A stretch of DNA of 64,000 bases from Thomasclavelia spiroformis DSM 1552 (GTDB taxonomy: Bacteria; Bacillota_I; Bacilli_A; Erysipelotrichales; Coprobacillaceae). A program made the position numbers and the translations under genes. The notes below the pieces were generated by a model. It worked only from the letters and a program-made list of their open reading frames with translations, was not told where the DNA came from and made no database searches. Shown here piece after piece: positions 31,101 to 39,323 of this stretch; position 1 is the stretch's first letter, and each line of letters starts with the position of its first letter. The stretch covers positions 2,429,596 to 2,493,595 of the forward strand of contig NZ_CP102275.1 in the NCBI RefSeq assembly GCF_025149465.1. The letters run 5' to 3'.

Positions 31101-33055
31101 AAACCTGCTGTATCTACAATTCCAAAGAATGAAGATTTAGGTTTTGCTCCTTGACCACTTACTGATCCAGCACCAGTTCCATTCCAAGGCGTAGGTTCTC
31201 CAAGATAGTCAAATCCTGTCCAAACAAATTCACCAGCATTAAAATCATTTTTAATGACAAAACTCCATGCATCGCTAGCTGAATGTCCCCATCCTACTTT
31301 GGCCTCATCATTATCATATTCAGACATTTGTAAATTTGCATTATCTCTACCAGTTACATTATAAATTCCTCGACTATGAACAGCACTTGCAGTTTCAGAA
31401 CCATATATTGGCCAATTAGAATAAGTATTATGCATTGCAACAGTTTGATCGTTACTAGCATAATTCAATCCTACAACACCACCAGATTCATAAATTTTCT
31501 GATCTATTTTACTAATCATCGCATTAGGATTGGTATTTTTTTGATTATCTCCAATAGTTAAAGGTCTAGTAGTATCAATTTCTTGAATCCAATCAATAAT
31601 ATTACTTGCTACATCAATATAATGAGATGTATCCGTATATACTCCTTCTGTTATTTCATTACCAACAGACCACATAATTACACTAGGATCATTTTTAGCT
31701 CCATCAACCATTGCTTTAGTATCAAATTCTCCCCACTGCATTCCTGGTTCACCATTAATAATTTGATTATCCGCAGTAATAGTTTCTTCAAAATGTGACG
31801 TATAATCATTTACATTTCCATTTTTATACTCTGTCCATCCATCAAATGCTTCATTAATTACAAGCATACCATATTCATTACAAATATCTAGTAAAGCTGA
31901 AGCTGCTGGATTATGAGTAACACGAATAGCATTACATCCCATTTCTTTTAATATTTTAACTTGTCGTTCAATTGCGTCACGATTTGCAACCGCTCCAAGT
32001 GATCCTTGGTCATGGTGCATACTTACACCTTTTAATTTCATTTTTTCGCCATTCAATGAAAAACCAGTATCTTTATCAAAGTTATAATAACGGAATCCAT
32101 AATCAGTTTCATATGTATCTAAAACTTCATTATTTTCTAAAATTTCCGTTTTCATTTTGTACATATTAGCGTCATCTACTGACCATAATTCTGGTTTTTC
32201 AACATTCACACTTTGTTCAATATCTTGAGTGCTATCAGCAGCCATTTCTATTTGGCTAGTTGTTGTATTACTTGCAACTTCACCATTTTCATCAAGCAAA
32301 GTATTTTTTACTGTTACTGTCTTAGTTGTATCACTATCATTTTCTACAGTTGTTGTAATATCAACTTCTACTGTTCCATTTTTATTAGCTTCTAAATCTT
32401 GAACAATAATTTGAGTTCCATTATAACCTACATGAACATCATCAGTTACAGTTAAAGTTACATCACGATAAATCCCGCTACCAGAATACCATCTACTACT
32501 TGGAATCTGATTATTAGTTTTTACAACTAAAACATTTTCTGTTTTACCATCACAAATTAATCCATCAGTAAGATCAAATGCAAATGCAGTATAACCATAT
32601 GGATGGTCTCCTAATTTTTTACCATTTAAATATACCTCAGCATTCATATAAGCACCGTCAAATTCAACCATAAGTTGCTTATCTTGATACTTTTCTGGTA
32701 CAACAAATGATTTTCGATACCATCCTACACCTCCAGGTAAAAAGCCACTTTCAGCTTCTCCACTAGTTGTAAATTCTTGATCGATACTATAATCATGTGG
32801 CAAATTAATATTTTCCCACGTTGTATCATTGTAATTTACATCTTGCGCGTTTTCTACATCTCCTCGATGAAATTTCCAATTTTCATTGAATAAGGTAGAA
32901 CGCTGTCCTTCTCCAATAATGTCAACATAAACCTCTTCAGGTTCAGATTGAACAATTTTAGCATCTGGTTTTGCTAAAACATTTACTGGAGCAACTGATA
33001 ACATCATTGTAGCAGTTAATACTACTGACATTTTTTTGTCCCATTTTGTTTTCAT
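28115..33055 (-). CDS. secreted, wall-anchored GH2 beta-galactosidase-type glycosidase with Ig-like, discoidin and FIVAR domains
   Basis: A 1646-residue surface enzyme. Signal peptide at residues 1-28. The GH2 sugar-binding, Ig-like and TIM-barrel domains reach to about residue 700. The acid/base is probably Glu467 in WSVGNEITEG and the nucleophile Glu554 in PIYGSETAS. FVWTGFDYLGEPTPW is family-typical. A DUF4982 region, a Big_1-like domain, two Big_4 repeats (VVGTYNNGEVKEL, LRGFYEDGKYSEA), a discoidin-like domain (TARWTNWALRNENPP context), a cadherin-like sandwich (LDELKLNGTNIEDF) and four FIVAR repeats follow. The end is SVKTGDATSF, a hydrophobic stretch, then SRKKKSNK, a sortase signal with KTGD in place of LPxTG. 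It probably trims host or dietary beta-galactosides. A cre-like site lies in its promoter. Confidence 0.85.
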   Translation of the reverse strand: MKTKWDKKMSVVLTATMMLSVAPVNVLAKPDAKIVQSEPEEVYVDIIGEGQRSTLFNENWKFHRGDVENAQDVNYNDTTWENINLPHDYSIDQEFTTSGEAESGFLPGGVGWYRKSFVVPEKYQDKQLMVEFDGAYMNAEVYLNGKKLGDHPYGYTAFAFDLTDGLICDGKTENVLVVKTNNQIPSSRWYSGSGIYRDVTLTVTDDVHVGYNGTQIIVQDLEANKNGTVEVDITTTVENDSDTTKTVTVKNTLLDENGEVASNTTTSQIEMAADSTQDIEQSVNVEKPELWSVDDANMYKMKTEILENNEVLDTYETDYGFRYYNFDKDTGFSLNGEKMKLKGVSMHHDQGSLGAVANRDAIERQVKILKEMGCNAIRVTHNPAASALLDICNEYGMLVINEAFDGWTEYKNGNVNDYTSHFEETITADNQIINGEPGMQWGEFDTKAMVDGAKNDPSVIMWSVGNEITEGVYTDTSHYIDVASNIIDWIQEIDTTRPLTIGDNQKNTNPNAMISKIDQKIYESGGVVGLNYASNDQTVAMHNTYSNWPIYGSETASAVHSRGIYNVTGRDNANLQMSEYDNDEAKVGWGHSASDAWSFVIKNDFNAGEFVWTGFDYLGEPTPWNGTGAGSVSGQGAKPKSSFFGIVDTAGFPKDTYYLYKSLWDEDSTTLHLMSTWNNNEIVKDANGKIKVDVFTNAAKVELYLNGKKIGEDSATKHTTPLGYTYQTFSNGEFYPSFKVDWAAGKLSAKAYDEAGNLISDTEGRDSVSTNSDATQLDAYADKTEIMADGNSLSYITVDVKDVNNNIVAGANNKINFSIEGEGKIVGVDNGNPSDTDSYKGNSRKAFSGKALVIVQSTKNEGSFTVTASSDGLQSSSITVNTKRPEVEGDTYLQSYKISKNMYVGLGQEPELPQTVVGTYNNGEVKELNVEWDSYDKSKLNTVGEFTVTGKLQDSDAIVSITIHVIGNVVAMENYSTVTNVGVVPELPQTLRGFYEDGKYSEAFPVTWDISENAFANEGIVTINGIASVLDGTKNVTAIIRVAPKLEESTNIASKNYHDAPVFTNGRMQNGMASDPSSVAISDSLLKLNDGISNDSVDTSARWTNWALRNENPPVDTYVQLEWQNEYTMQNVKLWHFTDNAYSVLPGDDNVRFEYFDGETNEWKEIESSHITQVPYTSGDTPYGFITPITTSKLRIWLKAPQAGKCIGLTEVEVYNYVKQTEANTTTNLDELKLNGTNIEDFEGFDGYNEETKTYTVNLKTIDYPTVEASAKNNESITVLPVYNDEVKIIVKSEDGKSVVTYTIKYNKETTEVDKTKLQEYVDSQEITSAINSIDKYTVESYQVFKEAYDKANEVLVNADATQEEVNQAYQSLKIAYENLEERVIEGDANKFELSIAIDLAKTITDEDLKNVIPVVVTEFKDALAQAQIVLANPDAIQEEVDTAFNRLANAMWKLEFYKGNKVQLQAFVEQLTGLNEDDYSEKTWLVFEEALNNANVVLANENAMQEEVDETYTKLVKAFLELRLIPNKDLLADLINQAESLNANDYTVASYAKLNTALVNAKNVFANVDATIEDVTAAEKAIETALTELVKNPSLSNNDSNVVNNGDTTSVKTGDATSFISITGLGASLSVLTYLFVSRKKKSNK
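28280..29125 (-). repeat. four FIVAR repeats of the GH2 protein
   Basis: Residues about 1311-1592 hold four copies of a roughly 70-residue unit marked by the spaced pattern Y/W-x4-F..L..A..V..N..A.QEEVD..Y..L..A...L. Repeats two to four have close counterparts, in the same order, in the protease at 49097-49729. At the DNA level the stretch CTTCTTGCATTGCATTTTCA (plus-strand reading) is identical in both. Confidence 0.8.
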
Positions 33056-33118
33056 TGTTCTATTCTCCTTTTCTTTCCCATAGACAATATAAAATTGTTC
33101 TATGTATAAATCCTATCA

Positions 33119-33132
33119 TGTAAGCGTTAATC
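33119..33132. promoter_or_regulatory. cre-like catabolite control site in the GH2 promoter
   Basis: TGTAAGCGTTAATC fits the Bacillus cre pattern TGWAARCGYTWNCW at 13 of 14 positions. On the minus strand it overlaps the region after a possible -35 (TTGATT), about 64 bases before the GH2 start. This placement would suit CcpA repression of a carbohydrate enzyme. Identity and use are inferred. Confidence 0.45.
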
Positions 33133-33191
33133 AAACAATCTTTTTAATAATATTTATTTGATTTTTATATTTTTCATTATTGATATTATAA

Positions 33192-33205
33192 TTACAACGT
33201 TGTAA
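33192..33205. promoter_or_regulatory. 14-base perfect palindrome upstream of the GH2 gene
   Basis: TTACAACGTTGTAA lies 137 bases before the GH2 start. A close variant with the same AACGTTGTA core lies 161 bases before the protease start at 53551. It could be an operator shared by the two surface-protein genes or part of the ppk1 control region on the other strand. Confidence 0.35.
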
Positions 33206-33349
33206 AATTTTTATATTAATAAAAATAAATCATATACATAAATTTAATAATAATTTTATGTAAAATTTTTATAAAGTAGATAGTTTTCTCGAGGTAATTA
33301 TTTTATAAATATGATATCCAATTATATATTAGAGTAGGAGGGAATTAAT

Positions 33350-35380
33350 ATGTATGGTTGTAAAGAAAATAGAGAACTTTCTTGGTTAAAATTTAATGAT
33401 CGTGTATTAATGCAGGCAAAAGATTCTAAAGTACCACTAGGAGAAAAGCTTAATTTTGTCTCTATATTTTCGTCAAATCTTGATGAATTTTTTATGGTTA
33501 GAATTGGTTCTTTATACGATCAAATGCTTTTCTATCCCGCATCCAGAGATAACAAAACTGAAATGACAGGAGAAGAGCAATTAAAAAGTTGCTTAAAAAA
33601 GATTACTTATCTTAATAAGAAAAAAGATCGCATTTATCATAACATTTTAGATGAATTAAAAACTTATGGTTGGGGAATTTTAAAATATTCTCAATTAAAA
33701 GATAAAAATGATCGTAAATATTTTGAAAACTATTTTGAAAGAGAGATATTACCTCTTATTTCTCCACAAGTAATTTCAAAAAGACAACCTTTTCCTTTTT
33801 TAAATAATCGTGAATTATATATTGTTGTTCAATTAGAATCAAAAAAAGGAAAACGTAAAATGGGAATTGTTTCTTGTGGAAATGCGATGGATGATCGAAT
33901 GCTAGCAATTCCTAGTATGCAAGGTAAGTTTATTTTAGTTGAAGATGTTATATTACATTTTGTTTCAAAAATCTTTGCGAAATATACTATTAAAAATAAA
34001 GCGTTTATTAGAGTTACTAGAAGTGCTGATATTGAAGAAGATGATCATTCACTAGAGGGACATGATGATTATCGTGAAATGATGGAAAATTTAATTAAAC
34101 AACGACGTAAATTAAGTCCGATTCGTTTAGAAATGTCTGAAGGATTAGAAGAATTAGAAATATTGATGCTTATGAATTTCTTAAACTTAAAGAAAAATCA
34201 AATATTTATTAGCACAGCACCACTAGATTTAAAATTTATTAGTCAATTACGTGATAATTTAAAATTTATGCATCCAGAAATGTTTTATAAAAAACTTGAA
34301 GCAAAAAACAGTCCATTAGTTGAAAACAGAGTTCCAATGATTAAACAAATTTTAAAACGAGATATTTTACTTACTTATCCATTTGAATCCATGTCTCCTT
34401 TTTTAAGATTACTTGAAGAAGCAAGCCGAGATCCAAGTGTAGCAAGTATCAAAATGACATTATATCGTGTTGCAAAAAATTCAAAAATTGTTAAATCGTT
34501 GATTAGAGCAGCTGAAAATGGAAAAGAGGTTGTTGTTTTAGTAGAATTACGAGCACGTTTTGACGAAGAAAATAACATTGATTGGTCTAAACGTTTAGAA
34601 GAATCTGGGTGTCGTGTTATATATGGATTAGATGGTTTAAAAGTTCATTCAAAAATATGCTTAATTACTTGTAAAAATAATCAAGGAATTCACTATGTAT
34701 GTCAAATTGGAACTGGTAATTATAATGAAGTAACTTCTAAATTATATACAGATATATCTTTGATGACATCTAAGTATGAAATCGGTGAAGAAATTAATAC
34801 AATCTTTAATCATTTAAGCTTAGGAGAAACTGAAAGTAATACACAATATTTAATGGTAGCTCCTAATTGCATGATTACTAAAATATTTGAATATATCGAT
34901 GAACAAATAGAACTTGCTAAAAGTGGTAAAGAAGCATATGTCGGTTTTAAATGTAATTCTGTAACTAGTAAAAGAATGATTGATAAATTAATTGAAGCAA
35001 GTCAAGCAGGAGTTAAAATTGATATGATTGTTCGTGGAATTTGTTGTATCATTCCAGGGGTACAAGGTTATACTGAAAATATTAGAGTGATTTCTATAGT
35101 AGGACGATATTTAGAACATTCTAGAATTTATATTTTTGGAAAAGGTGATAATCAAAAAGTATATATTTCATCTGCTGATTTAATGACAAGAAATTTAGCA
35201 CGACGCGTAGAGGTTGCTGCACCTATTTTAGATGAAAAAATTAAAAAAAGACTTGTCTCAATGTTTAATACAATGTTAAAAGACAATGTTAAAGCTTGTG
35301 AGCTATTATCAGATGGTAGTTATAAACGAATTAAAAACAAATTACCAGAATTGAACAGTCAAGAATATTTTTTTAAATAA
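33350..35380 (+). CDS. ppk1: polyphosphate kinase 1
   Basis: Makes polyphosphate from ATP and can run backwards. The 676-residue protein has the PPK1 order: N domain (ENRELSWLKFNDRVL, FSSNLDEFFMVRIG), head domain, then two phospholipase-D-like halves. The autophosphorylated His is in GLDGLKVHSKICL and the second catalytic His in RYLEHSRIYIFG. YISSADLMTRNLARRVE is the usual C-terminal motif. An AGGAGGG ribosome binding site lies upstream. A phosphofructokinase gene follows after 25 bases and an unknown gene after a further 14, so they form one operon. Confidence 0.95.
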   Translation: MYGCKENRELSWLKFNDRVLMQAKDSKVPLGEKLNFVSIFSSNLDEFFMVRIGSLYDQMLFYPASRDNKTEMTGEEQLKSCLKKITYLNKKKDRIYHNILDELKTYGWGILKYSQLKDKNDRKYFENYFEREILPLISPQVISKRQPFPFLNNRELYIVVQLESKKGKRKMGIVSCGNAMDDRMLAIPSMQGKFILVEDVILHFVSKIFAKYTIKNKAFIRVTRSADIEEDDHSLEGHDDYREMMENLIKQRRKLSPIRLEMSEGLEELEILMLMNFLNLKKNQIFISTAPLDLKFISQLRDNLKFMHPEMFYKKLEAKNSPLVENRVPMIKQILKRDILLTYPFESMSPFLRLLEEASRDPSVASIKMTLYRVAKNSKIVKSLIRAAENGKEVVVLVELRARFDEENNIDWSKRLEESGCRVIYGLDGLKVHSKICLITCKNNQGIHYVCQIGTGNYNEVTSKLYTDISLMTSKYEIGEEINTIFNHLSLGETESNTQYLMVAPNCMITKIFEYIDEQIELAKSGKEAYVGFKCNSVTSKRMIDKLIEASQAGVKIDMIVRGICCIIPGVQGYTENIRVISIVGRYLEHSRIYIFGKGDNQKVYISSADLMTRNLARRVEVAAPILDEKIKKRLVSMFNTMLKDNVKACELLSDGSYKRIKNKLPELNSQEYFFK

Positions 35381-35405
35381 ATCGTTAAGTTTAAGGAGTG
35401 ATTAA

Positions 35406-36473
35406 ATGAAGGTTGGAATATTAACAAGCGGTGGTGATTGCCAATCACTAAATGCTACTATGCGCGGATTGGCTATGACCTTATATAATAATATTAAAGA
35501 CGTAGAAATAATTGGTTTTCTTTATGGATATAAAGGTTTAATGTATGAGGATTATAAAATAATGAAACCTGAGGATTTTTCTGATATTATTAATATTGGT
35601 GGAACAATTCTTAAAACATCTAGATGTCCATTTAAAAAAATGAGAATAATTGAAAATGGCTTTAATAAAGTTGAAGCTATGAAGAAAACATACAAAAAAT
35701 TAAACTTAGATTGTTTAGTTGTTTTAGGAGGAAATGGTTCATTAAAATCTGCTAATATGTTAGCACAAGAAGGATTAAATGTGATTGGATTACCAAAAAC
35801 AATTGATAATGATACATGGGGTACCGATTATACATTTGGTTATCAATCAGCAATCGATATTGCTACTAATTATATTGATCAAATTCATACAACTGCTGCT
35901 AGTCACAGTCGTGTCTTTATTATTGAAATTATGGGACATAAGGTTGGGCATATTTGTTTATCTGCAGGTATTGCTTCAGGAGCTGATATGATTTTAATCC
36001 CAGAAATTCCATATGATATTGAAAAAATTGCAGATACGATTAAACAACGCCAAGCTAATGGTAAACAATATACTATTATTGCTTGTGCTGAAGGAGCAAT
36101 TTCTAAAAATGATGCTTTACTTAATAAAAAGCATTATAAGTTAAAAGTTGCTGCTCGTGAAGGACTATCAGTAGTTCATGAAATTGCTAATAAATTACAA
36201 AATTATATTGATAGTGAAATAAGAATTGCTTGCCCAGGTCATGTTCAACGGGGTGGGAATCCATGTCCATATGATCGAACAATAGCAACACGTTTTGGAG
36301 TTGAAGGTGCCAAGTTAATTATGGAAAAAAACTATGGAAAACTTGTTGTTTTAAAAAACAATTCTGTTACTTTTATTCCACTAGAAGAATCTGCCGGTAA
36401 ATTGAAATATGTTGATCCTTGTGGTGAAGACGTAAGTAGTGCTAGGTTATTAGGAATTTCATTTGGAGATTAA
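35406..36473 (+). CDS. pfkA: 6-phosphofructokinase (PfkA family) with a non-standard active site
   Basis: A 355-residue phosphofructokinase with ILTSGGDCQSLNATMRG at the start, LPKTIDNDTWGTDYTFG (catalytic Asp134 within PKTIDND) and CPGHVQRGGNPCPYDR near the end. Residues that separate ATP from pyrophosphate users are mixed. Position 111 is Gly (ATP-like, Gly104 in E. coli) but position 131 is Lys (as in pyrophosphate enzymes), and position 110 is Asn where the Mg-binding Asp103 is expected (LGGNGSLKS). Donor use therefore cannot be called by eye. The position between ppk1 and an unknown gene suggests coupling of phosphate stores to glycolysis, but this is inference. AAGGAG precedes the ATG. 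Confidence 0.85.
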   Translation: MKVGILTSGGDCQSLNATMRGLAMTLYNNIKDVEIIGFLYGYKGLMYEDYKIMKPEDFSDIINIGGTILKTSRCPFKKMRIIENGFNKVEAMKKTYKKLNLDCLVVLGGNGSLKSANMLAQEGLNVIGLPKTIDNDTWGTDYTFGYQSAIDIATNYIDQIHTTAASHSRVFIIEIMGHKVGHICLSAGIASGADMILIPEIPYDIEKIADTIKQRQANGKQYTIIACAEGAISKNDALLNKKHYKLKVAAREGLSVVHEIANKLQNYIDSEIRIACPGHVQRGGNPCPYDRTIATRFGVEGAKLIMEKNYGKLVVLKNNSVTFIPLEESAGKLKYVDPCGEDVSSARLLGISFGD

Positions 36474-36490
36474 TTTTTAAGGAGTTTATG

Positions 36491-37414
36491 ATGATTAAGG
36501 AAACAATACTTGAATTAATAAATAATGATTTTATTAATACTGGAAAGATTTATTTTAGTAATAACATTCCTATTCAAATTAGTAATGCTATATATAGTTT
36601 TGGAAGTAATGATATATCAAATATTATTGTTTTTATTGATAATAGTGATAACTTAGATGGTAGTATTGGCTACATTTTTACAGATAATAAGTTATATAGT
36701 AATTTAGGTAGTTTTAGTTATGATCAAATTACTAAATTAGAATTAGAAAAGCATCACAATGATCCTAAAATATCTGCCTATATTACTACTAAAGATAATA
36801 AATATTGTTTTGATAATAAACATTTTAATTCCGAAACACTTTTAAAATTATTTTCAAAAATAACTGATCTTAATATTGATGTTATTTTAAATGATCATGA
36901 AAAAGTTGCTTATTATGTATCAATCGTTTTAAATGATCTTTTAAACGATGAATACGAAGATATCGAATTAACAACTCAGTTAAAAAATAAAATAAACAGT
37001 TTTTTACATGATTTAGAATTAATAGAAAAACTAGATGATTCTCAATATAATGATGAATTAGAACAATTATGTTTACATGCATTAAATTTCTTTGATGAAC
37101 TTGAATTAGATAGTGAAGAAATTGATATTTTAATAGAACTCAAAAAAGATTTTGATAATAAAAAATATCGAAATTCTCAACAAGTTAATGAAAGCAAAAA
37201 ATACTATGATGATTTGATGAATAAATATCTTAATGGAGATCCAAATACTATTAATCAGATGAAAAATGTCATGAAAAATTTAGGTTTAGATGAAAATAGT
37301 TTAAAAGATAAATCTCCTGATGAAATAAATCAATATATCGATAATTTATGTAATAGTTTTGGAATATCTAGACAACAAGTTGATAATCTTGCTAAGAAAT
37401 TTAATTTTAAATAA
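36491..37414 (+). CDS. unknown protein, third gene of the ppk1-pfk operon
   Basis: A soluble 307-residue protein with no signal peptide or membrane helix. The first 110 residues look like a beta-rich domain (ISNIIVFIDNSDNLDGSIGY, then NKYCFDNKHFN). The middle is acidic and helical. The C-terminal 60 residues (MKNVMKNLGLDENSLK and YIDNLCNSFGISRQQVDNL) form a helical pair reminiscent of short protein-interaction modules. Two ATGs in tandem occur. The second, at 36491, has the better spacing to AAGGAG. I recognise no family. Its stop lies 16 bases from the edge of a group II intron inserted on the opposite strand. Confidence 0.65.
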   Translation: MIKETILELINNDFINTGKIYFSNNIPIQISNAIYSFGSNDISNIIVFIDNSDNLDGSIGYIFTDNKLYSNLGSFSYDQITKLELEKHHNDPKISAYITTKDNKYCFDNKHFNSETLLKLFSKITDLNIDVILNDHEKVAYYVSIVLNDLLNDEYEDIELTTQLKNKINSFLHDLELIEKLDDSQYNDELEQLCLHALNFFDELELDSEEIDILIELKKDFDNKKYRNSQQVNESKKYYDDLMNKYLNGDPNTINQMKNVMKNLGLDENSLKDKSPDEINQYIDNLCNSFGISRQQVDNLAKKFNFK

Positions 37415-37465
37415 TATTAAACTAAATTGAATAGGGGCTAAGAATTAAAATCTTTCGCCCCTTTC

Positions 37466-37499
37466 ACAACACCGTGCGTAGGGTTCCCTACACGGCGTT
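37466..37499 (-). ncRNA. group II intron domain V
   Basis: On the minus strand, immediately after the maturase stop codon, ACGCCGTGTAGGG-AACC-CCTACGCACGGTGT forms the compact bulged hairpin expected of the catalytic domain V (arms described separately, bulge near the middle). It is followed by the domain VI stem at 37433-37462. Confidence 0.75.
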
Positions 37500-38918
37500 T
37501 CATAAGTTTATAGAGTTGTAATAATCTAGTGCACTTATAAATCCGTATATTTTTAATACTTCATTTGTAAGTGTCCTTTTTAGTATGAAGCTATTGGCGA
37601 TGTGCCAGTAGCTTTTTCTTGTGTTTGCCCATTCCCATGCCTTACTTTTATTAATACCTAGTTTTTGTAAATTTCTATACCTTGTTCTTACTAACTTCCA
37701 TCTTTTCCAATATATCATTCGTATTCTTCTTCTCATCCATGAGTCTATTTCCCTTAGATGTTTACTCATATTCGCTATCCTATAGTAATTCACCCAACCT
37801 GTAATGTATTCTTTTAACTCTTTAGCTAATTCCTTACTTGATATTGGTCGGTTCCTTTTGGTGATTTCCTTTATTCTCTTTTTCATCTTTTCTTTAGATT
37901 TCTTGTGAACAGTGATTCGTACATTACCACTCTTCTCTATATAAAATCCAAAGCCCAAGAATTTTATATCAGTAATATAGGCTACCTTTGTCTTCTCTTG
38001 GTTCACTTTTACAAATAATTTCTCTTCTAAATATCTTGTCACTGTTTCTTTGACTCTCATTGCACTTCTTTTACTTTTGAATAGTATGACACAGTCATCT
38101 GCGTACCTTACAAATCGATTTCCTCTTCTTTCCATTTCTTTATCAAATTCATTAAGATATATATTTGATAATAATGGGCTGAGTGGCCCACCTTGGGGTA
38201 CTCCTTTTGTAGTTTCTTCAAACTTATGTTTTACTATGACTCCTGCATTGAGATATTTATGTATGAGTGATATAACTCTTCCGTCTTTAATAGTTTGTGA
38301 CAATATCTGTATAAGTCTTGAATGGTTGACTGTATCAAAGTACTTCTCTAAATCTAGGTCTACTGTATATCGATATCCTTCATTGGCGTATTCGACTACT
38401 TTTCTTACTGCTTGATGGGCATTTCTTCTTGGTCGGAACCCATAACTATTGTCACTGAATTGGGGTTCAAATATTGGTGTCAGTACCTGTACTATCGCCT
38501 GTTGTATGACCCTATCCGTCACTGTTGGAATTCCTAACTCTCTTTTCTTTCCGTTATCTTTTGGTATTTCTACTCTTTTAACGGCTTGTGGACTATAATG
38601 TCCCTCCATGATAAGTTTCTTTAGATAAGACCAGTGTTGTGCGAAATGCGTACGAACTTCTGCGACTTGCATTTTATCTACACCACCACTTCCCTTATTA
38701 CTCATAACCCTTTGGATTGCCTTTTCTATATTGGCATCCTCCATAATTGTTTCAAGTAACTTCTCATGTACTACAAATCTATTGGTGTTCTTCGTATGTG
38801 ATATCTCTTGTTTTGATGTAGGATACACTTCTCCACTATTGTCGTATTCCGTACTATCTTCATAGAGTAAGCCTAATGATAGTTGACAGTATCCTATTTT
38901 ATCTTGAGTATCTTTCAT
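37500..38918 (-). CDS. ltrA: group II intron reverse transcriptase/maturase (no endonuclease domain)
   Basis: The 472-residue intron-encoded protein has the RT0-RT7 blocks RELGIPTVTDRVIQQAI, NSYGFRPRRNAHQAV, LDLEKYFDTVNH, KGVPQGGPLSPLLSNIYL and the active-site YADD at 272-275 (RFVRYADDCVILF). LGFGFYIEKSG and the maturase X domain (KELKEYITGWVNYYRI) follow. The end of the protein (AWEWANTRKSYWHIANS) has no HNH endonuclease, as in class C introns that target terminator hairpins and single-stranded DNA. The reading frame is intact. The stop codon abuts domain V. Confidence 0.93.
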   Translation of the reverse strand: MKDTQDKIGYCQLSLGLLYEDSTEYDNSGEVYPTSKQEISHTKNTNRFVVHEKLLETIMEDANIEKAIQRVMSNKGSGGVDKMQVAEVRTHFAQHWSYLKKLIMEGHYSPQAVKRVEIPKDNGKKRELGIPTVTDRVIQQAIVQVLTPIFEPQFSDNSYGFRPRRNAHQAVRKVVEYANEGYRYTVDLDLEKYFDTVNHSRLIQILSQTIKDGRVISLIHKYLNAGVIVKHKFEETTKGVPQGGPLSPLLSNIYLNEFDKEMERRGNRFVRYADDCVILFKSKRSAMRVKETVTRYLEEKLFVKVNQEKTKVAYITDIKFLGFGFYIEKSGNVRITVHKKSKEKMKKRIKEITKRNRPISSKELAKELKEYITGWVNYYRIANMSKHLREIDSWMRRRIRMIYWKRWKLVRTRYRNLQKLGINKSKAWEWANTRKSYWHIANSFILKRTLTNEVLKIYGFISALDYYNSINL

Positions 38919-39323
38919 TTCCAGTTCACCTCCTTATGTTCGGTCCTTCGCTAGATAACCATTACAGTTATCATCATCACTACTATGACCTCGGCTGACT
39001 TCCTAGGACAAACGTTTCCACCATGATTACATTTTCATCATGTTCCTAGGACCTCCCACGGTAAGACATAACACTTTCATCCTATGTACCCACTATCTTT
39101 ACACTGCTTATTCCGTCGTACTATTGGACTTCGATTTGTTTAGCAATCTCATCCGATAAGCTTCTGCCTAAAATAGTTCGTATTCCTTGGGTCAGGACTT
39201 TGCCTCCAACTTCCTCCCGTTCACACCTTACGATGGATACCTTGTCTTCGGCTAGTGGTTGGTAGTACGAAACCCCCACAGTGGACTTTCACCACCTAGT
39301 CTTATGTCATGCGTGGCACACTA

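Follow-up and report, generated by a model that had tools for sequence, protein, structure and literature searches.

The ppk1 gene for polyphosphate kinase 1 (PPK1) and a gene for a phosphofructokinase (PFK), here called pfk, stand side by side in a stretch of DNA from Thomasclavelia spiroformis DSM 1552. This stretch, the window, is 64,000 nucleotides long (bases 2429596-2493595 of a single contig of 2,528,470 bases), and coordinates below are positions within it. All three genes at the locus lie on the + strand. A gap of 25 nt separates ppk1 from pfk and one of 14 nt separates pfk from a third gene, much as a sequence-only reading of this DNA had described (25 and about 14 bases). The PFK is an isoform of the PFK-A family and belongs to a clade delimited by at least 52% identity, which takes in 138 of 141 unique PFKs. 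The features of the pair are:

33336..33342, + strand: Shine-Dalgarno-like AGGAGGG of ppk1, read off the sequence
33350..35380, + strand: ppk1, polyphosphate kinase 1, 676 amino acids (aa), identified by Pfam domains and by TIGR03705 over its cut-off
35393..35398, + strand: Shine-Dalgarno-like AAGGAG of pfk, read off the sequence
35406..36473, + strand: pfk, PFK-A isoform of the GGNG[ST]xK[ST] / PKTIDND / MGHK clade, 355 aa, identified by PF00365, clade motif and predicted fold
35733..35750, + strand: codons for residues 110-115, donor-site motif GGNGSLKS (Asn103, Gly104, Lys107 and Ser108 in E. coli numbering)
35796..35798, + strand: codon for Lys131 (E. coli position 124) within PKTIDND
35937..35942, + strand: codons for His178-Lys179 (E. 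coli 171-172; other PFKs have Arg171 of an MGR motif)
36093..36191, + strand: codons for residues 230-262, spanning about 33 aa where canonical ATP-PFKs have about 10; includes the near-invariant Lys241

The identities given in the sequence-only reading also hold. PPK1 matches all four of its Pfam domains over cut-off (PF13089, PF02503, PF17941 and PF13090) and scores 751.4 bits with TIGR03705 against a cut-off of 465.85. Its motifs KVHSK and EHSR, as read from the sequence, contain the two catalytic histidines (His435 and His592 in E. coli PPK1). The pfk product matches PF00365 at 1.5e-97 (326.7 bits, cut-off 30.9), and the third protein has no family match above cut-off in Pfam and NCBIfam searches.

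A scan of 32900-37600 gave no terminator-like site (mean of 0.9 in shuffled sequence), and promoter-like sites around the locus were uninformative, with 33 observed and 34.4 expected. No riboswitch or other RNA was found upstream of ppk1, and the sole RNA matches are pieces of a group II intron 3' of the third gene. The short gap, the Shine-Dalgarno sequence of each gene and the lack of a terminator-like site in the scan would suit co-transcription, and ppk1 and pfk are a two-gene operon-like unit.

Distribution of the ppk1-pfk pair

The window's family is represented here by 43 genomes. PPK1 matches are found in 31 of them, 28 being close (64-100% identity), and a window-type pfk at 68% identity or more is present in 27. 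In each of these 27 genomes, pfk lies directly after ppk1 on the same strand; for one (G040), the evidence is the contig coordinates, which place the end of ppk1 and pfk on one contig. The remaining close PPK1, the 28th (G005), is cut by a contig end, and the clade pfk was not found there. Of the 15 family members that lack a close PPK1, none has a pfk at that level of identity, and one (G025) carries a 49% relative with GGAGT together with a divergent, non-adjacent PPK1. Flanking genes vary between genera while the pair persists.

Association of the two genes extends beyond the family. With thresholds of E <= 1e-85 for pfk and E <= 1e-50 for PPK1, the 244 genomes of the order yield 59 with pfk and 110 with PPK1, and all 59 of the former are also among the latter (p 3e-26 by Fisher test, which, like the other contingency p-values given here, ignores phylogeny and genome incompleteness). 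In a sister family, PPK1 occurs in 31 of 31 genomes with pfk versus 48 of 170 without (p 3e-15). Only two of these 31 genomes have the genes side by side on one strand, as ppk1-pfk in G194 and as pfk-ppk1 in G113. Samples from the window's class and phylum contained the clade pfk in 9 of 296 and 8 of 295 genomes, respectively, all of the window's order.

A scan of contigs led to the Clostridia. The titles of the best 80 loci are nearly all of Lachnospiraceae or other Clostridia. PPK1 falls within the examined flank at 2 of these best 80 loci, and it is encoded in 47 of the 50 genomes that stand behind 50 of them. The 348 Lachnospiraceae genomes sampled include 269 with pfk and 286 with PPK1, and the two occur together in 264. 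PPK1 is thus found in 98% of genomes with pfk (264/269) versus 22 of 79 without (p 6e-41), with the two genes mostly unlinked. Even with ATP as the phosphoryl donor of the enzyme, this association would still be a puzzling tie between phosphate storage and sugar flux.

Direct adjacency is found in some Lachnospiraceae as well. There, pfk lies beside ppk1 at 8 of 59 PPK1-centred loci, and G828 brings the number of such genomes to nine. One of the nine (G657) has the order ppk1-pfk-dnaX-ybaB-recR. The order ppk1-pfk is used by the window's family, six Lachnospiraceae and G194; the order pfk-ppk1 is used by three Lachnospiraceae that group together (G669, G939 and G996) and by G113. A careful maximum-likelihood tree was built from 43 of 140 PFK rows, partly hand-picked, and rooted with three mixed-type PFK outgroup rows. 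It retained all 11 adjacent rows from outside the family, and two long branches in it (L299 and L301) are possibly misplaced. On this tree, the adjacency label changes eight times, and adjacent rows from outside the family occupy seven separate places. A FastTree of all 140 rows, built from matches of at least 330 (PFK) or at least 600 (PPK1) aligned residues, shows 14 changes, some of which come from broken contigs. All adjacent PPK1s fall within one PPK1 clade of 65 rows.

Because the label changes eight times and both gene orders exist, adjacency probably arose repeatedly. The two orders cannot represent one simple arrangement kept by descent, and a single ancestral operon followed by many losses is a less simple, though possible, account for the ppk1-pfk order. 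From these genomic patterns, we consider it very probable that PPK1 and this PFK clade are functionally linked. The sequence-only reading had proposed an operon joining polyphosphate to glycolysis and had called its first two genes rarely paired. Fixed adjacency in the family, recurrence elsewhere and co-occurrence of unlinked genes favour the ppk1-pfk part of that proposal. Rarely paired is inaccurate: in the window's family, the pair is the rule among genomes with pfk, and in Lachnospiraceae it occurs occasionally.

Two other gene arrangements were seen. In G117 (L117:235-4350), pfk is followed directly by a PPK2-like gene (judged by sequence), with ppk1 convergent beyond it, so that three polyphosphate-related genes lie together. 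The window's own genome has no PPK2 gene at E <= 0.001. At Lachnospiraceae loci L157-L236 (for example, L171:5001-7663), pfk mostly stands directly before dnaX-ybaB-recR, and its place with the gene of a DNA polymerase III subunit is puzzling.

The donor site of the phosphofructokinase

The window genome encodes four PFK-A proteins. Besides the window pfk product (GGNGS, PKTIDND), these are a canonical ATP type (L001; GGDGS, PGTIDND), a 'mixed' type (L003; GGDGT, PKTMDND) and a pyrophosphate (PPi) type (L004; GGNDS), the last being the paralogue nearest to solved PPi-dependent PFKs. GGNG[ST]xK[ST] and PKTIDND are present in 138 of 138 unique clade members, and the MG[R/H] motif carries His in 137 of them. 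The three PFKs that were left out of the clade are L295 (49%, same motif), L156 (49%, GGAGT, Asn at 171) and L003.

In E. coli numbering, the characteristic residues of the clade are Asn103, Gly104, Lys107, Ser/Thr108, Lys124 and His171. In the canonical ATP-PFKs from the window's family, the corresponding sequences are GGDG, Gly108, PGTIDND and MGR. Asp103 and Arg171 are kept in all 22 comparison paralogues from the family (11 canonical and 11 mixed), and both are replaced in the clade. Three lysines distinguish the clade from both paralogue types: Lys107 (residue 114), Lys172 (residue 179) and Lys241, which resides in the insertion. This insertion has 33 residues in the clade, 33 in the mixed type and 10 in the canonical type, and its mean net charge is +2.8 in the clade versus -0.7 (canonical) and -0.1 (mixed). 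Arg169, Glu229, Arg273, His279 and Arg282 are invariant alignment columns and correspond to Arg162, Glu222, Arg243, His249 and Arg252, the fructose-6-phosphate residues of E. coli PfkA.

Known enzymes provide signatures against which these residues can be read. According to PMC12203962 (section 9) and PMC10339645 (section 12), Gly104 is required for the alpha-phosphate of a nucleoside triphosphate (NTP), and adenosine is blocked in PPi enzymes by a residue bulkier than Gly at 108. The same sources describe Lys124 as PPi-like yet not decisive and place an insertion near 220-230 in PPi enzymes. In all solved ATP-PFKs, position 108 is Gly (PMC12203962). From the ATP signature, the clade has Gly104 (138/138), but Gly108, Asp103, PGTIDND and MGR are replaced by Ser/Thr108, Asn103, PKTIDND and MGH. 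From the PPi signature, it has Lys124 (PKTIDxD), a residue larger than Gly at 108 and the insertion near 220-230, but not Asp104 (GGDD). Because Gly104 is ATP-like but Ser/Thr108, Lys124 and the long insertion are PPi-like, the donor site as aligned fits neither signature in full. The window PFK also stays below the cut-offs of TIGR02482 for ATP-PFK PfkA (265.6 vs 371.35) and of TIGR02483 for PFK_mixed (345.3 vs 430.55). Its fold is predicted with a mean confidence score (pLDDT) of 91.5, and the model reaches a template-modelling (TM) score of at least 0.8 to PFKs. The best Foldseek match by E-value among solved folds is a PPi-PFK (9cit).

The third gene and its surroundings

The remaining features of the locus are:

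36480..36484, + strand: Shine-Dalgarno-like AGGAG of the third gene, read off the sequence
36488..37414, + strand: third gene, 308 aa, family of unknown function with a PH-like N-terminal domain followed by helices; judged to be outside the unit

The sequence-only reading took the third protein for a possible regulator or tether of the two enzymes and looked to conservation of the triple in relatives. A homologue (family of about 300 aa, homologues L006-L034) is present in 30 of the 43 family genomes, and it is as common with PPK1 (21 of 31 genomes) as without (9 of 12; Fisher p 0.73). The third gene adjoins pfk in one of the 27 genomes with pfk, that of the window itself, which is also the only one among the 43 to have the triple. 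As a partner of ppk1-pfk, it was rejected on these two grounds, and that part of the earlier proposal is not supported. In G038 and G039, two genes that appear by sequence to encode a GntR-like regulator and a membrane protein lie between pfk and the third gene. In G035 and G041, which are without ppk1-pfk, the third gene keeps its place, directly next to or a short way from the large secreted-glycosidase-like gene found on the flank of ppk1 in the window. The simplest account of its contact with pfk is loss of intervening genes in the window's lineage. On this account, the third gene came to lie next to pfk recently and by accident, and it is outside the ppk1-pfk unit.

The analysis of the third-gene family drew on 26 of the 30 homologue loci plus the window; an own-genome duplicate, a split gene, one gene with a stop and a near-duplicate were left out. 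The predicted structure (pLDDT 82.7, predicted TM score 0.62) begins with a PH-like domain and is helical in its C-terminal half. The PH-like part has no Foldseek match at E <= 0.001. VIA-align gave the protein a highest Z score of 8.1, with a short DnaK-lid-like stretch of helices, and scores of about 7 with PH-like domains, values that are no proof of kinship.

A group II intron (Rfam RF02001, RF01998 and RF00029) occupies 37426-39237 on the - strand and carries a reverse transcriptase open reading frame at 37500-38918. It starts 12 nt past the stop of the third gene, and the window holds no second DNA copy of it.

Possible phosphoryl donors and known systems

The unit would join polyphosphate synthesis to the conversion of fructose 6-phosphate to fructose 1,6-bisphosphate. 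When ATP is abundant, PPK1 would bank phosphoanhydride bonds in the form of polyphosphate. The PFK isoform would then phosphorylate fructose 6-phosphate from the chain (polyphosphate, perhaps tripolyphosphate or ATP), such that glycolysis is primed from the store and ATP is spared. In the donor site, Gly104 would keep the alpha-phosphate pocket free to take a third phosphate, Ser/Thr108 would narrow the adenosine pocket, and Lys107, Lys124, Lys172 and the lysine-bearing insertion after the AEG motif would offer a basic path for a polyanion. A polyphosphate site could look like this, with space for a third phosphate, a tighter adenosine pocket and additional lysines. Use by this PFK of polyphosphate made by PPK1 is the mechanism that we favour, as a possibility somewhat short of probable. 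That polyphosphate is a physiological donor is put forward as tentatively, or slightly more so. Polyphosphate is our first choice of donor at this level of confidence, with an ATP enzyme tuned by or co-expressed with polyphosphate a close second. The broadest version, in which the clade is a widespread polyphosphate-dependent phosphofructokinase for ATP-free priming of glycolysis in abundant gut anaerobes, fed by PPK1 and drawn beside ppk1 several times independently, is rather unlikely.

If the polyphosphate reading is true, it gives polyphosphate a concrete metabolic use in gut Firmicutes and some of the commonest gut bacteria a testable polyphosphate-consuming glycolytic enzyme. No paper on the ppk1-pfk pair was found in the open-licence literature.

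Several observations weigh against polyphosphate as the donor. Gly104 is the very residue that permits NTP binding, and the closest NCBIfam model that the protein passes, NF002872 (351.7 bits, cut-off 253), bears the name ATP-dependent 6-phosphofructokinase. Ser108 and Lys124 are shared by L003-type paralogues, and these two residues alone are not diagnostic of the clade. ATP-PFKs rank beside the PPi-PFK in the Foldseek results, with a difference that is within noise. In 68 of 74 clustered Lachnospiraceae loci, pfk is directly before dnaX, as expected of a housekeeping gene. PPK1 does not need the window-type pfk, since 51 of the 110 genomes of the order with PPK1 are without it, and the blindness of the Fisher tests to phylogeny and incomplete genomes belongs here too. 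Finally, the ppk1 frame of G001 (L065, G001:C1:1901338-1903364) contains several stop codons beside an intact pfk, and ppk1 stops also occur in G146 and G021; sequencing or assembly error is possible in all three.

Some of these points are what one would expect of an isoform that depends on ATP or GTP. It might be tuned by polyphosphate, phosphate or PPi, or be co-expressed with PPK1 so that glycolytic ATP matches polyphosphate synthesis, with adjacency serving regulation. Gly104 retains the NTP alpha-phosphate site, the NF002872 score is over its cut-off, and dnaX-linked copies resemble a housekeeping enzyme. Trypanosome PFK is described as ATP-dependent despite Lys124 in PMC12203962 (section 9), and T. 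maritima PfkA as inhibited by PPi and polyphosphate in PMC10339645. Yet a canonical ATP PfkA (L001) is already encoded in the genome, along with two further PFKs. Moreover, none of the 138 members has Gly at position 108, unlike all solved ATP-PFKs (PMC12203962), and Asp103 and Arg171, which persist in 22 of 22 comparison paralogues, are replaced. This explanation is doubtful, though it ranks directly behind polyphosphate.

A reversible PPi-dependent PFK, tied to PPK1 through the general inorganic-phosphate economy of these anaerobes, would account for Lys124, for Ser/Thr108 (Thr in C. thermocellum Pfp), for the PPi-PFK-type insertion, for the best Foldseek match and for Asn103, which the clade has in common with the PPi-type L004 of this genome. 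However, Gly104 is universal in the clade, in place of the Asp that sets the PPi register in BbuPFK (PMC12203962). The genome already has a GGND enzyme of PPi type in L004, and PPi leaves the tie to PPK1 unaccounted for. We regard this explanation as improbable. Still less probable is another acceptor, such as sedoheptulose 7-phosphate or tagatose 6-phosphate, with stress or carbohydrate regulation behind the tie to PPK1. His171 and other clade-specific residues would suit it, and use of sedoheptulose 7-phosphate by PFK-A enzymes is published (PMC10339645), but the fructose-6-phosphate residues of E. coli PfkA are retained. Phylogenetic inertia with transfer of a functionally meaningless linked pair, which the travelling of the pair in the window's family and Fisher tests that ignore phylogeny would allow, is hardly credible given eight adjacency changes, two gene orders and co-occurrence that persists where the genes are unlinked.

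Among known systems, canonical ATP PfkA (E. coli, B. stearothermophilus, L001) shares with the clade its fold, Gly104 and the fructose-6-phosphate residues, but has Asp103, Gly108, PGTIDND and MGR and no 33-aa insertion. The PPi-dependent PFK-A enzymes C. thermocellum Pfp and BbuPFK resemble it in a residue 108 larger than Gly, the insertion at about 220-230 and the Lys of PKTIDxD (BbuPFK), but they carry Asp104 where the clade has Gly (138/138). The closest paralogues, at about 40% identity, are the PFK_mixed or 'group III' PFKs (TIGR02483) of the L003 type. These share Gly104, Lys124, Ser108 and an insertion of equal length, and differ in Asp103, Thr107, Arg171 and an insertion charge of about -0.1 versus +2.8.

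Polyphosphate-using kinases such as NAD kinase and glucokinase serve as a working analogy; they act on other acceptors, glucokinase is of another family, and no membership is claimed. The gene of the Pfp of Thermotoga maritima is not known to be adjacent to ppk1. This enzyme is likened to the clade by its published kinetics, and use of polyphosphate by the window's clade is putative. NAD kinase has a GGDG motif in common with PFK (PMC8553519). T. maritima Pfp, likewise a PFK-A, is the precedent for the proposed chemistry: in a table of PMC10339645, Vmax is 203, 249 and 319 and Km is 0.067, 0.010 and 0.0038 for PPi, tripolyphosphate (PPPi) and polyphosphate, respectively, such that the highest Vmax and the lowest Km are both obtained with polyphosphate.

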